The notes under the pieces: model-generated
The model's database searches: none
What the model was told of the DNA's origin: nothing
The model's input: the letters and a program-made list of their open reading frames with translations, nothing else
NCBI GenBank assembly: GCA_903813345.2
Contig: CAIIXF020000007.1
Coordinates: 38,674,671 to 38,738,670, forward strand
Direction of reading: 5' to 3'
Length of the DNA: 64,000 nucleotides
Source: Owenia fusiformis
Lineage: Eukaryota; Annelida; Polychaeta; Sabellida; Oweniidae
Translations under genes and position numbers: made by a program
Part shown: positions 19,066 to 64,000 of the stretch, in pieces
Numbering within the stretch: position 1 is the stretch's first letter
Layout of the letters: the number at the start of each line of letters is the position of its first letter

Positions 19066-22000
19066 TCAGGACCGTTTGCCCATAAATGGTCCACTTGCTA
19101 AGAGAAGGTTACGTCTTGTGAAATGAAGATCTAACACAGGCGAGTTCTTTGTCTTCTGGGAACCAATCAACAGCTTGGTGTCCTCACCAGTGCTGAAGTT
19201 ATAAGAAACATGTAAATATGTAAGTATAGTCTTGATCAGATTACTAGTTCAGTGTTGTTTTATTTTCAAATTAAAAGTCATGCTTTCCTTGTTACAATGG
19301 ATGTATGCTCACAAAAATGAAGTCTTATCGTTTTTCCATAGCACTCAGGGACTTAAGTCAGAGTATAACCATGTATAACTATGTTCTAAGGGATAGACTC
19401 AATGTCTAATACCCCTCCTAAAAGAAGACTGGCTAGTTTCATCAATAAACAAATGAATTAGTTTGACGTACATGTTTGCTACAGTAGCAGTCCCAGGGGC
19501 AGTGTCCGAGTCTTGCTCTTCAAACACCTTAGCGACATCCCATAATAACACTTGGTCATCAATGCCACCTATAAATACAGAGAAACAACAATGTTCATTC
19601 CACTCTTTTCATATGAACATGTACATGTGCTTCATTCCATGCTTATTCAATTCTTGCATTTTTAATATTTTCTCAAAAGGCTGAGTCAGAATAGTGTATT
19701 TTAACGGTACTACAAATACTTTTACTGAATTATAAATCTTAAAATTAACTCTCAGCAGAGTAAATCATTTCAGTTCTTAATTTGACATCAATCTATAATT
19801 TGTAAATCTGTAATTTATTAGAAATCAATGATCAGGTTAGTAGCCAGGGGGAAGGGGAGGGGGTTTGGGCAAACCCCAAAAATCGTGCAGTTTTTCATCA
19901 TATTGATCACACTTTGAGTAATTTTGGGACAAAATTTCTCAAAGATCCCCCTTGATTCTATGAGAAACTGACCCCCTGGCAAATGCTAGCTATGGCCCTG
20001 AATGATGGATTTACCTGATGCTAATACAGCCCCCTCTCTACTGAAACACAGTGAATATACAGTGTTTGTGTGGCCCTGACCCTGAATGATGGATTTACCT
20101 GATGCTAATACAGCCCCCTCTCTACTGAAACACAGTGAATATACAGTGTTTGTGTGGCCCTGACCCTGAATGATGGATTTACCTGATGCTAATACAGCCC
20201 CCTCTCTACTGAAACACAGTGAATATACAGTGTTTGTGTGGCCCTGACCCTGAATGATGGATTTACCTGATGCTAATACAGCCCCCTCTCTACTGAAACA
20301 CAGTGAATATACAGTGTTTGTGTGGCCCTGACCCTGAATGATGGATTTACCTGATGCTAATACAGCCCCCTCCCTACTGAAACACAGTGAATATACAGTG
20401 TTTGTGTGGCCCTGACCCTGAATGATGGATTTACCTGATGCTAATACAGCCCCCTCCCTACTGAAACAGAGTGAATATACAGTGTTTGTGTGGCCCTGAC
20501 CCTGAATGATGGATTTACCTGATGCTAATACAGCCCCCTCTCTACTGAAACACAGTGAATATACAGTGTTTGTGTGGCCCTGACCCTGAATGATGGATTT
20601 ACCTGATGCTAATACAGCCCCCTCTCTACTGAAACACAGTGAATATACAGTGTTTGTGTGGCCCTGACCCTGAATGATGGATTTACCTGATGCTAATACA
20701 GCCCCCTCTCTACTGAAACACAGTGAATATACAGTGTTTGTGTGGCCCTGACCCTGAATGATGGATTTACCTGATGCTAATACAGCCCCCTCCCTACTGA
20801 AACACAGTGAATATACAGTGTTTGTGTGGCCCTGACCCTGAATGATGGATTTATCTGATGCTAATACAGCCCCCTCTCTACTGAAACACAGTGAATATAC
20901 AGTGTTTGTGTGGCCCTGACCCTGAATGATGGATTTACCTGATGCTAATACAGCCCCCTCTCTACTGAAACACAGTGAATATACAGTGTTTGTGTGGCCC
21001 TGACCCTGAATGATGGATTTACCTGATGCTAATACAGTCCCCTCTCTACTGAAACACAGTGAATATACAGTGTTTGTGTGGCCCTGACCCTGAATGATGG
21101 ATTTACCTGATGCTAATACAGCCCCCTCCCTACTGAAACACAGTGAATATACAGTGTTTGTGTGGCCCTGACCCTGAATGATGGATTTACCTGATGCTAA
21201 TACAGCCCCCTCCCTACTGAAACACAGTGAATATACAGTGTTTGTGTGGACCTGACCCTGAATGATGGATTTACCTGATGCTAATACAGCCCCCTCTCTA
21301 CTGAAACACAGTGAATATACAGTGTTTGTGTGGCCCTGACCCTGAATGATGGATTTACCTGATGCTAATACAGCCCCCTCTCTACTGAAACACAGTGAAT
21401 ATACAGTGTTTGTGTGGACCTGACCCTGAATGATGGATTTACCTGATGCTAATACAGCCCCCTCTCTACTGAAACACAGTGAATATACAGTGTTTGTGTG
21501 GCCCCTCAGTTGTCCAATCTGGTTCCCATTGGCCAAGTCCCACAACAGAACAGTCTTATCTGCCCCTGGATAGTAGGATTGGTTATTTAATTTTCAGATA
21601 CACTCCTCTTCATAAGTTTGGAAACTGGAAGTTTTCATTGGAGAGAATATTAAAGCCAATCAAAATCTTAGTTTTGTTCCTAATTACAAGTTTAGAAATT
21701 CTTGTAAAAAGTCACTGAATTTTTTTAATTGGCAAACAAAAGGCTTTAATAAGTGAACAAAAGTGAGACTTCCAGTTGCCAAACTTATGGAGAGGAGTGT
21801 GAGATTGACATTCTACAGCAATATTTACAATTGTTAACTATCTACTTACTTGCAAGATTAACTCATTTAAGACTGATATTTTAAATATAAAGAAGACAAT
21901 TTGAAGCATCATTTGGCATATACAGTTATGATGATAATGATGATTCTTTTGGTACTTACAATATACTTCAAAAATGTTTTTGGCTACTGTTTACACAGTT

Positions 22001-25000
22001 TACCTGCTGATGCAAGATATCTGCCATCTGGTGAGAATCTGAGACACTGAATTGCACCTTTATGACCTGACATCTGGCGGACACATTTGCCATTCAACAT
22101 GTCGTAAAGTCGCACAAGTCTGTCACTACAGCCTGTCGCTACATAGTTACTGTTGGGATGGAACTGTACACACTGAAAAAGCAATGAAATGTCACGATTT
22201 TAAAAGTATAATCAAATGTAGCAAAATCGCATCTATCAATAATGGATACATGCTTTTATGCTATTACCATGAAGTTTGTGTCTAAAGAATACTAGTTTCA
22301 ACATTTTCCTACTTGTCAAATCTTAAACATTGTTTTTATGTGAGGACAATAGATTGGATTCTTGGGTCTTGATGACCTTTTGACTCGTTAATATACATTA
22401 TTCCACAGGAATTGAAAATTCAAAAAAGTTCTGAGGCTATTCTGTCACAACATCAAATACAGTTTTACCTAATTTCTAGATTTGTCATTATAAATATCAT
22501 GATGTAGAAGACCAATAATATGTCTAAAACAAATTAGAATCATCCTTTAATGTTGTCACATTTTCAAATGAAATATGCAAGCAATTAAAATGCAACAAAA
22601 AAGTTTTCATTTTCATATCGCAATACAGATTTTTAATATACATGCATGTATAATGAACTTACATCAACATCTGATAGATGACCAGCAAATATCCTTAATG
22701 GCTGATAATGGTCTGTAGACCAGATTCTAGCTGTTCTATCATGCCCTCCAGACACGAAATAATGGCCATGGGGACTAAACTGTACACTCCATACTGGATA
22801 GTTGTGACCTTTGTATACCACTAGATTAGTCCATGTTTTTAAACTCCAAAGACGAACTGGAAGATAAAGGTTATCATCATAGAATAATGTGCTAGGGGCT
22901 AATCACATATAATAGCTTGTGTGCCATGTTCCAAAACTCCAAAGATGGAAGATAAAGGTTATCATCATAGAATAATGTGCTAGGGGCTAATCACATATAA
23001 TAGCTTGTGTGCCATGTTCCAAAACTCCAAAGATGGAAGATAAAGGTTATCATCATAGAATAATGTGCTAGGGGCTAATCACATATAATAGCTTGTGTGC
23101 CATGTTCCAAAACTCCAAAGATGGAAGATAAAGGTTATCATCATATAGAATAATGTACTAGGGACTAATCACATATAATAGCTTGTGTGCCATGCTCCAA
23201 AACTCCAAAGACGAACTGGAAGATAAAGGTTATCATCATAGAATAATGTGCTAGGGGCTAATCACATATAATAGCTTGTGTGCCATGTTCCAAAACTCCA
23301 AAGATGGAAGATAAAGGTTATCATCATAGAATAATGTGCTAGGGGCTAATCACATATAATAGCTTGTGTGCCATGTTCCAAAACTCCAAAGATGGAAGAT
23401 AAAGGTTATCATCATAGAATAATGTGCTAGGGGCTAATCACATATAATAGCTTGTGTGCCATGTTCCAAAACTCCAAAGATGGAAGATAAAGGTTATCAT
23501 CATAGAATAATGTGCTAGGGACTAATCACAAATAATAGCTTGTGTGCCATGTTCCAAAACTCCAAAGATGGAAGATAAAGGTTATCATCATAGAATAATG
23601 TGCTAGGGACTAATCACATATAATAGCTTGTGTGCCATGCTCCAAAACTCCAAAGATGGAAGATAAAGGTTATCATCATAGAATAATGTGCTAGGGGCTA
23701 ATCACATATAATAGCTTGTGTGCCATGTTCCAAAACTCCAAAGATGGAAGATAAAGGTTATCATCATAGAATAATGTGCTAGGGGCTAATCACATATAAT
23801 AGCTTGTGTGCCATGCTCCAAAACTCCAAAGATGGAAGATAAAGGTTATCATCATAGAATAATGTGCTAGGGGCTAATCACATATAATAGCTTGTGTGCC
23901 ATGTTCCAAAACTCCAAAGATGGAAGATAAAGGTTATCATCATAGAATAATGTGCTAGGGGCTAATCACATATAATAGCTTGTGTGCCATGTTCCAAAAC
24001 TCCAAAGATGGAAGATAAAGGTTATCATCATAGAATAATGTGCTAGGGGCTAATCACATATAATAGCTTGTGTGCCATGTTCCAAAACTCCAAAGATGGA
24101 AGATAAAGGTTATCATCATATAGAATAATGTGCTAGGGGCTAATCACATATAATAGCTTGTGTGCCATGTTCCAAAACTCCAAAGATGGAAGATAAAGGT
24201 TATCATCATATAGAATAATGTGCTAGGGACTAATCACATATAATAGCTTGTGTGCCATGTTCCAAAACTCCAAAGATGGAAGATAAAGGTTATCATCATA
24301 TAGAATAATGTGCTAGGGGCTAATCACATATAATAGCTTGTGTGCCATGTTCCAAAACTCCAAAGATGGAAGATAAAGGTTATCATCATAGAATAATGTG
24401 CTAGGGGCTAATCACATATAATAGCTTGTGTGCCATGTTCCAAAACTCCAAAGATGGAAGATAAAGGTTATCATCATATAGAATAATGTGCTAGGGGCTA
24501 ATCACATATAATAGCTTGTGTGCCATGTTCCAAAACTCCAAAGATGGAAGATAAAGGTTATCATCATATAGAATAATGTGCTAGGGGCTAATCACATATA
24601 ATAGCTTGTGTGCCATGTTCCAAAACTCCAAAGATGGAAGATAAAGGTTATCATCATAGAATAATGTGCTAGGGGCTAATCACATATAATAGCTTGTGTG
24701 CCATGTTCCAAAACTCCAAAGATGGAAGATAAAGGTTATCATCATAGAATAATGTGCTAGGGGCTAATCACATATAATAGCTTGTGTGCCATGTTCCAAA
24801 ACTCCAAAGATGGAAGATAAAGGTTATAATCATAGAATAATGTGCTAGGGGCTAATCACATATAATAGCTTGTGTGCCATGTTCCAAAACTCCAAAGATG
24901 GAAGATAAAGGTTATCATCATAGAATAATGTGCTAGGGGCTAATCACATATAATAGCTTGTGTGCCATGTTCCAAAACTCCAAAGATGGAAGATAAAGGT

Positions 25001-63733: not shown

Positions 63734-64000
63734 GTAAGTTATACTTGTTACAACACAGGCTTTCCTCGCAAAACAAGGGCCTTTTCCAGTAAGTAATACT
63801 TGTTACAACACAGGCCTTTTCCCCACAGAACAAGGGTCTTTTCCAGTAAGTTATACATGTTAAAACACAGGCCTTTCCCCACAAAATAAGGGCTGTTTCC
63901 AGTAAGTAATACTTGTTACAACACAGGCCTTTTCCCCACAAAATAAGGGCCGTTTCCAGTAAGTACACAGGCTTTTTTCCCACAAAATAAGGGCATTTTC
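63690..64000 (+). repeat. ~57-bp exon/donor tandem array, at least 5-6 units (esterase)
   Basis: GTTACAACACAGGCCTTTTC recurs at about 63690, 63747, 63802, 63859 and 63915, with a shortened unit at 63957, and runs to the window edge. Each unit is 44 bp of the exon end ([14 protein letters not shown]) plus the donor CCA|gtaagt and about 10 bp of intron. The first unit is the real exon. A TAA within the donor stops read-through. Confidence 0.93.

Follow-up and report, generated by a model that had tools for sequence, protein, structure and literature searches.

Tandem arrays on exon edges in a 64-kb window

In a 64,000-nucleotide stretch of Owenia fusiformis DNA (the window, meaning the whole stretch analysed), tandem arrays repeatedly coincide with splice junctions, which raises the questions of whether this placement exceeds chance and how such arrays arise and persist. 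Four gene products were assigned, namely TAF5, a carboxylesterase and a pair of paralogous 2OG-Fe(II) oxygenases:

19440..49830, minus strand: TAF5 exons holding or flanking arrays (316-aa spliced piece compared)
29947..39124, plus strand: oxygenase A gene, within a TAF5 intron
40533..47043, plus strand: oxygenase B gene, within the same TAF5 intron
59702..63733, plus strand: carboxylesterase, exons 1-3 (COesterase domain match)

Both oxygenases gave a DIOX_N domain match, with 2OG-FeII_Oxy matches below cut-off, and exon 2 of oxygenase A shows a frame difference of 1 nt. When TAF5 was spliced at the exon-proximal sites, its residues 1-314 aligned collinearly with residues 241-554 of a solved TAF5 chain. 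Pfam yielded no useful result for 49.7-59.6 kb (minus strand), 61.2-62.4 kb (plus strand) or one 20-aa piece; a COX1 search for mitochondrial DNA gave no match, and no relative turned up among viral contigs scanned with esterase exon 1. The arrays of the window were located by TRF:

19996..21504, minus strand: TAF5 84-bp donor array, x18.0; functional donor 21443|21442; exon part 62 nt
22858..25851, minus strand: TAF5 88-bp acceptor array, x33.8 (34 copies); exon start 22856; exon part ~25 nt (assigned by hand)
28862..29457, minus strand: TAF5 94-bp donor array, x6.4 (6 full copies); donor 29368|29367; exon part 90 nt
48412..49260, minus strand: TAF5 64-bp donor array, x13.2; donor 49194|49193; exon part 62 nt (assigned by hand)
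30027..30574, plus strand: oxygenase A 150-bp donor array, x3.7; donor after 30111; exon part 85 nt
33203..34293, plus strand: oxygenase A 76-bp acceptor array, x14.4; exon start 34228; exon part 66 nt
40613..41152, plus strand: oxygenase B 150-bp donor array, x3.6; donor after 40697; exon part 85 nt
42579..43383, plus strand: oxygenase B 59-bp intronic array, x13.9; exon from 43385
44425..44574, plus strand: oxygenase B 76-bp acceptor array, x2.0; exon start 44510; exon part 66 nt (assigned by hand)
63689..64000, plus strand: carboxylesterase 57-bp donor array, continuing beyond the window; donor after 63733; exon part 45 nt

An earlier sequence-only reading of the window had announced eight arrays combining an exon edge with its splice site; TRF recovered every array that it named, but the count was wrong, its own list containing nine. 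Its further array, called the ninth there and the tenth here, does end on an acceptor as described, the last base of the 59-bp array being the A of the AG at 43383-43384. For the carboxylesterase array, TRF reported x4.9 at 63689-63965 within the window, and 11 donor-like junctions, including the exon's own, were found when the array was followed past the window edge (locus L056). The 94-bp and 88-bp arrays of TAF5 occupy opposite ends of one intron, and in the latter the acceptor AG is gone in 32 of 34 copies through a 5-nt deletion. Copy identity by TRF was 94-98% in seven of the nine boundary arrays and 88-90% in the remaining ones. The tandem unit crosses the intron/exon boundary, and both 5' and 3' boundaries are affected. 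No more than about one unit of any array lies within the exon, which fits the earlier suggestion that expansion is tolerated on the intron side only.

Excess of arrays at junctions in 53 loci

The frequency of such arrays was assessed in a sample of 275,550 bp from 53 loci that were selected for protein homology and carry 179 exon anchors and 354 junctions. These loci were gene clusters fitting stretches of at most 10 kb, isolated match rows being omitted. Anchors came from 98 of 108 match rows in batch 1 and 81 of 105 in batch 2, with one anchor in L007 corrected by hand; batch 2 was chosen after the analysis of batch 1, with the array limits unchanged. Fourteen arrays span a junction, at 13 of the 179 anchors (~7%), and exon-edge arrays occur in many unrelated genes. 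Three arrays stand outside the 14, two with exon edges beyond the anchors (L019 3635-4001, L031 2723-2977) and one reaching 4 nt into an exon (L004 3074-3133).

Under strict limits (period ≥50, identity ≥90%, score ≥200) and a null of randomly placed unit-sized seeds that already excludes exon-internal ones, 8 of 24 arrays spanned a junction in batch 1 (3.1 expected, P = 0.007), 5 of 11 in batch 2 (2.2 expected, P = 0.044) and 13 of 35 in the pooled batches (5.3 expected, P = 0.00075). When arrays masked over more than half their length were dropped as dispersed in the pooled test (35 to 31 under strict limits, 55 to 46 under looser ones), the counts were 13 of 31 (5.2 expected, P = 0.0014) and 14 of 46 (6.5 expected, P = 0.0036). 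Removal by hand of four exon-derived rows, three of them extra pieces of arrays already counted at a junction (L007 3932, L022 1730, L022 5229) and one a part of a 28-bp array read as exon-derived and lying outside the 14 (L007 7887), gave 13 of 27, a count seen in 0 of 5000 runs (4.6 expected), and 14 of 42 (6.0 expected, P = 0.0018), respectively. Looser limits weakened the single batches (8/37, P = 0.046; 6/18, P = 0.075; 8/53 in an earlier test, P = 0.069). In the tests of batch 1, batch 2 and their pool, 13 arrays were scored as dispersed in the rows for units not seen elsewhere and retained in the rows for all arrays. The excess thus ranged from 1.9 to 3.1 times expectation depending on the limits, and the non-random anchoring proposed for the window, where the arrays of oxygenases A and B, being paralogous, are not independent, extends to independent loci as a two- to threefold excess but not as a rule. 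No excess at junctions appeared when entire array intervals were slid (8 vs 8.0); we consider this null inappropriate, since the part of an array inside a working exon amounts to about one unit at most.

By TRF rows, 9 of 19 two-copy arrays spanned a junction vs 5 of 23 longer ones; after correction of rows whose period was a multiple of the unit, the figures were 4 of 14 and 10 of 28. A same-strand copy lay nearby for 8 of 98 exon segments; among 490 intron controls the figure was 78, or 54 once dispersed sequence was removed, the control counting all array members rather than founders.

Splice-site type, reading frame and distance

The same reading had considered a process acting at transcribed GT/AG sites. 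Such a process is not supported, and is set aside as the main cause, because donors and acceptors are affected alike (6:8 among the junction arrays of the 53 loci) and array edges lie 20-97 nt inside the exon. Arrays confined to introns showed no significant excess within 100 bp of junctions (4/21 vs 2.6, P = 0.27; 8/41 vs 5.8, P = 0.21). Their mean log distance to junctions was shorter than random (21 arrays, P = 0.02; 41 arrays, P = 0.0017), and exons may exert a looser pull on arrays. Frame-keeping of the units was rejected, since periods modulo 3 were distributed 5:8:5 in 18 arrays (hand count), independently of the reading frame. Of the 139 copies that make up 18 arrays, the 88-bp array being set apart, 136 retain their splice dinucleotides; this analysis and those of codon position and variants covered the arrays of the window and batch 1 (19, then 18), leaving aside the 59-bp and 28-bp arrays, and the ALDH array had no frame.

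Possible sequence exchange between exons and arrays

The data on an exchange of sequence between exon and array point both ways. In esterase paralog 2, a 3-nt in-frame deletion is common to the exon and four of five array copies; the distal-most copy lacks it, as do the exons in paralogs 1, 3 and 4. Esterase exon 2 lies at a distance of 0.127 from exon 1 and 0.185 from its own copies, and exon 3 at 0.136 from array 1 and 0.223 from its own copies; this greater closeness of the exon ends to each other speaks against a steady exchange. Among exon-part variants, those present in one copy only were synonymous in 16 of 49 cases (25.7% expected, P = 0.26), those shared by several copies or found in two-copy arrays in 18 of 29 (P = 4e-5), and those in which the exon differs from all copies in 9 of 23 (P = 0.15). 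Variable exon columns numbered 32, 20 and 49 by codon position, a third-position skew (P = 0.002). Of 12 arrays with at least six copies, 6 have an exon copy identical to the array consensus. Exon-adjacent copies were not more exon-like, a similarity gradient away from the exon reaching P < 0.05 in 1 of 12 arrays; some arrays have a strongly divergent last copy, in part because flanking sequence entered the alignment. Exon-derived columns were less variable (79/1115 vs 103/790), and this was dropped as an argument because two arrays alone carry the difference (65/1003 vs 38/671 without them, P = 0.68).

In the oxygenase paralogs A, B and C, exon 1 and its array are 93-95% identical over ~620 bp, the intron part included; elsewhere exons are 75-86% identical and introns have no BLAST hits. 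The 76-bp unit is present in 14 copies in A, 2 in B and one in C. No second haplotypes of 20 exon probe segments were found in the assembly's unplaced contigs.

Relation to amphioxus mirages and other repeats

The term 'mirages', used in the earlier reading for minisatellites at exon/intron boundaries, is indeed in print for amphioxus, where they are described in globins and Adh3 (PMC3087553) and in Adh, TnC and PGBD5 (PMC3902484), and where length polymorphism and somatic instability are reported. Our literature search found no report of them outside amphioxus. In both cases an intron/exon boundary is repeated in tandem, at the 5' or the 3' edge, and the Owenia arrays resemble amphioxus units of 10 to 160 bp, whose globin copies are 81-100% alike; splicing in amphioxus is apparently normal. 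They differ in belonging to an annelid rather than a cephalochordate, in affecting several unrelated gene families, and in size, with as many as 34 copies and a stretch of 7 kb. Compared with ordinary intronic minisatellites, they share tandem units, similar copies and local birth, whereas the Owenia unit contains coding sequence and a splice site and has one end fixed by the exon.

Intron gain by tandem duplication is described in PMC4974935 (the Rogers model, with cases in potato RdRp and fission yeast). Splice signals are multiplied there as here, and the potato duplication likewise crosses an intron/exon boundary; such a duplication, however, creates a new intron, while the Owenia copies sit in an existing one, form arrays and need no new position. 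The earlier suggestion of intron gain by duplication of AGGT-containing exon does not fit, because the arrays lie at existing junctions and TAF5 is collinear; for TAF5, the gene to which this rejection applies, no new intron interrupts a formerly continuous exon.

Origin and maintenance of the arrays

We consider it probable, with considerable reserve, that the arrays are mirages in which junction-crossing duplications survive by exon-proximal splicing, grow on the intron side and occasionally exchange sequence with the exon. Tandem duplications of roughly 28-165 bp would arise in genic DNA; those crossing a junction would survive because splicing keeps to the exon-proximal site, the extra copies turning into intron, as suggested by the collinear protein and by exon definition. 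Growth proceeds on the intron side only, as the array anatomy shows, and purifying selection would hold the exon copy, which at times may exchange sequence with the array (mixed evidence). Such exchange could let arrays live longer and could thereby explain their excess; a birth bias towards exon-containing segments is another possible source. Junction-spanning cases make up about the same share of two-copy arrays as of longer ones, a similarity that longer survival would not lead one to expect.

That duplications are seeded at or near junctions by a mutagenic process linked to exons, splicing or transcription (R-loops, nicking, slippage) appears rather unlikely: such a process would account for the junction excess, by our reading also present among two-copy arrays (4/14), and for the shorter mean log distance of intron-only arrays, but not for the equal involvement of donors and acceptors, the edges well inside exons, the lack of a significant intron-only excess within 100 bp or the persistence of the 88-bp acceptor array without AG. 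Also unlikely is that duplications fall anywhere and selection purges exon-internal ones while tolerating those that cross junctions, with no real excess. The whole-interval null, the weaker test under looser limits and the observation that exons are copied no more often than intron segments all agree with such a filter, but the unit-sized null, which already lacks exon-internal seeds, still gave 13 vs 4.6-5.3 and an excess in both batches.

It is very improbable that the intronic copies are functional, as alternative exon ends or splicing regulators under selection. Their largely intact splice dinucleotides and the third-position skew would suit such a role; single-copy variants without synonymous bias, periods that ignore the frame, the lost AG of the 88-bp array and the 14, 2 and one copies among the oxygenases would not. 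An assembly artefact we hold to be least credible of all: long tandem arrays are prone to error and were judged from the assembly alone, but copies differ from one another, paralogs have their own versions, similar structures recur in several unrelated genes, and the assembly is PacBio based (PMC9977687).

The preferred reading, mirages kept by exon-proximal splicing, extends a gene-by-gene curiosity of amphioxus to an annelid and supplies a first figure for its frequency. A wider version, that thousands of Owenia exons are selection-held minisatellite masters whose copies repeatedly enter introns, with exchange among arrays, exons and paralogs and decay of old copies, is possible yet doubtful; if true, the process behind boundary repeats, so far known from amphioxus, would occur widely among animals, lengthening introns and altering exons to a real extent. 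At such exons, errors may enter annotation, the mapping of reads and the calling of variants. These exons also offer a natural experiment on how a splice site is chosen among as many as 34 that are nearly identical, on the growth of introns and on how an exon recombines with its own copies.

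Junction-spanning arrays in the window

TRF recovered every array that the sequence-only reading had named in the window, and with the sequence in gene orientation the edge of a coding exon was found repeated together with its donor or acceptor in nine window arrays (hereafter junction-spanning arrays); that reading's own list also holds nine, while its written total of eight was an error. An additional array said to end exactly on an acceptor proved to be the following:

42579-43383, + strand, 59-bp array (tenth array), ending at the exon 3 acceptor of oxygenase B

The gene names proposed there were likewise all confirmed, namely TAF5 (with WD40 matches too), oxygenase (DIOX_N and two sub-cut-off 2OG-FeII_Oxy matches) and carboxylesterase. 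Exon sequence contributed 62 of 84, about 25 of 88, 90 of 94 and 62 of 64 nt per unit in TAF5, 85 of 150 and 66 of 76 nt in the oxygenases and 45 of 57 nt in the esterase, the exon share of the 88-bp, 64-bp and second 76-bp arrays being assigned by hand from the sequence.

Junction-spanning arrays exceed a unit-sized null

Loci of the same genome were selected solely by protein homology, in batch 1 (PF00118, PF00171 and PF00227; 31 loci, 176,228 bp, 98 exon anchors, 192 junctions) and batch 2 (PF00006, PF00152, PF00735 and PF01602; 22 loci, 99,322 bp, 81 anchors, 162 junctions), a choice under which an exon with array copies may be slightly more likely to be matched. Junctions were predicted rather than transcript-based: a script placed them using the ends of the homology matches together with splice motifs and phase. 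Under strict limits (period at least 50, identity at least 90%, score at least 200) and a null in which single unit-length seeds were placed at random outside exons, 13 of the 35 arrays pooled from these 53 homology-chosen loci were junction-spanning against 5.3 expected (P = 0.00075), which supports the earlier suggestion that junction anchoring is non-random. The excess over this null was present in both batches, and junction-spanning arrays occurred in several gene families.

Table. Junction-spanning arrays under the unit-sized null (limits; arrays; observed; expected; P)
Strict; batch 1; 8/24; 3.1; 0.007
Strict; batch 2; 5/11; 2.2; 0.044
Strict; dispersed sequence dropped from arrays and null space; 13/31; 5.2; 0.0014
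Strict; four more exon-derived rows excluded by hand; 13/27; 4.6; reached in 0 of 5000 runs
Looser; nothing removed; 14/55; 7.4; 0.013
Looser; dispersed sequence dropped; 14/46; 6.5; 0.0036
Looser; four exon-derived rows also excluded by hand; 14/42; 6.0; 0.0018

Because some TRF periods are multiples of the true unit, the expectation under the unit-sized null is raised. Three results speak against an excess. Looser limits weakened the individual batches (8/53, P = 0.069; 8/37, P = 0.046; 6/18, P = 0.075). No excess was seen when complete arrays were slid as whole intervals (8 observed vs 8.0 expected); the unit-sized null was judged the correct one, because an array that expands adds copies and has no way of taking up an exon. 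Whole exons had a nearby same-strand copy in 8 of 98 cases, compared with 78 of 490 length-matched intron segments, or 54 of 490 once dispersed sequence was left out, in a control that takes each array member as a founder.

Anatomy of the sampled arrays

Arrays in the sampled loci included the following, the first five loci being clear junction-spanning cases:

L047, 3387-6153, adaptin donor, 82 bp, 34 copies
L022, proteasome donor, 127 bp, 23 copies, 7.3 kb span
L007, a single CCT gene, 53 bp x20 at a donor and 96 bp x4 at an acceptor
L046, donor, 151 bp
L051, septin exon flanked by arrays on both its ends
L011, 913-1865, 136 bp x7, 99% identical, stops 4 nt short of an apparent CCT exon

The last of these is without exon sequence and resembles the 59-bp array of the window. 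Both exon edges were affected (donors to acceptors 6:8 among 14 sample arrays), no frame rule applied (period modulo 3 of 5, 8 and 5 in the 18 arrays of the window and batch 1), and growth was on the intron side. The exon fraction of the unit averaged 0.56 across the 14 sample arrays, with no departure from uniform (P = 0.17), and intron-only arrays within 100 bp of junctions showed no significant excess (4/21 vs 2.6, P = 0.27; 8/41 vs 5.8, P = 0.21); the excess therefore lies mainly with exon-containing units, at either edge. The mean log distance of intron-only arrays to a junction was short (P = 0.02 for 21 arrays, P = 0.0017 for 41), and it is possible that exons exert a weaker pull on other arrays too.

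Possible exchange among exon, array and paralogs

Exon-column variants confined to a single copy were near neutral (16/49 synonymous vs 25.7% expected), whereas those in several copies or in two-copy arrays were biased towards synonymous changes (18/29, P = 4e-5; Fisher vs singletons, P = 0.018), as though the older ones had at some time gone through the coding exon; where the exon differed from all copies, 9 of 23 positions were synonymous (P = 0.15). The array consensus equalled the exon copy in 6 of the 12 arrays with at least six copies, but similarity to the exon showed no gradient with distance along the array (P < 0.05 in one of 12 arrays). In the oxygenases, exon 1 and its array were 93-95% identical over about 620 bp among paralogs A, B and C, the intron part included, compared with 75-86% for their other exons and no BLAST matches between their other introns; paralog D lacked an array at exon 1, and the 76-bp unit was present in 14 copies in A, two in B and one in C.

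The esterase paralogs were located as follows:

L056-L059, contig C7, 38738650, 38755454, 38790108 and 17747362, esterase paralogs

Paralogs 1-3 each carried their own exon-edge array, of differing divergence, and none was found within the 939 bp covered for paralog 4. In paralog 2 the exon shared a 3-nt in-frame deletion with four of its five array copies; the distal-most copy lacked it, as did the corresponding exon in paralogs 1, 3 and 4. Some recurrence is possible, since the deletion falls in an A-rich run where gaps occur in other copies. For esterase exon 2 the distance was 0.127 to exon 1 and 0.185 to the copies in its own array; for exon 3 it was 0.136 to array 1 and 0.223 to its own array, each being nearer to another locus. 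With four lines for and two against, exchange among exon, array and paralogs is partly supported by these comparisons and would be at most occasional.

Splicing and a possible origin

When TAF5 was read with the first donor or last acceptor, residues 1-314 aligned to 241-554 of 6f3t_A, a human TFIID subunit 5 chain of solved structure, and the alignment crossed all four array-bearing junctions. Across 18 arrays, 136 of 139 copies retained intact splice dinucleotides, compared with 2 of 34 in the 88-bp array. Exon definition would be the natural explanation of the predicted exon-proximal splicing. The arrays may have been born by ordinary tandem duplication, been tolerated through splicing at exon-proximal sites, and survived longer where selection held the exon copy. 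Of the TRF rows, 9 of the 19 with two copies and 5 of the 23 with more were junction-spanning, which became 4 of 14 and 10 of 28 after correction of multiple-period rows; the corrected proportions do not distinguish a bias at birth from longer survival.

The term 'mirages', which the sequence-only reading used for amphioxus, is indeed published, in excerpts covering globins and Adh3 (PMC3087553) and Adh, TnC and PGBD5 (PMC3902484), and none beyond amphioxus appeared among the literature matches listed. The same reading's parallel with intron gain by AGGT duplication did not fit: as excerpted in PMC4974935, a duplication across an intron/exon boundary in potato and 24-bp AGGT repeats in fission yeast created new introns, unlike the Owenia arrays.

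Other features of the window

We infer that the window lies on chromosome 4 of Owenia fusiformis, whose PacBio-based assembly is described in excerpts of PMC9977687 as 505.8 Mb in 12 chromosome-scale scaffolds. In the 498-Mb genome of 525 contigs that holds the window, contigs C1-C12 appear to be the 12 chromosomes listed by name as text (1, 10, 11, 12, 2 ...), an order in which the lengths known (all but C9) decrease steadily from 62.2 to 31.9 Mb. Numbered this way, chromosomes 1, 2, 3, 5, 6, 7, 8, 11 and 12 carried all 38 Forkhead match rows, with close clusters of four rows on 5 and three on 7 and five rows on 11, and chromosomes 4, 9 and 10 and the small contigs carried none. PMC9539403 places the 35 Fox genes of O. 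fusiformis on the same nine chromosomes, with tandem foxQ2 genes on 5 and 7 and foxF, foxC, foxL1 and foxQ1 on 11. Two same-strand oxygenase genes (29947-47043) sit inside a single intron of the opposite-strand TAF5. Exon 2 of oxygenase A (30667-30781) falls 1 nt short of its oxygenase B counterpart in length, which breaks the frame when spliced and could reflect a pseudogene, another splice site or an assembly error. Two open frames, 165 and 230 aa long, follow one another between the first and second esterase exons (61123-62375); they matched no family in a Pfam search and, judged by eye, look like a decayed mobile element. Tandem arrays of a unit of about 135 bp (8164-8715, 17453-18347 and 55301-56000; relatives in the sampled loci L018 and L023) and of a 162-bp unit (2466-3492; relatives in L035 and L037) are dispersed families without exon origin.
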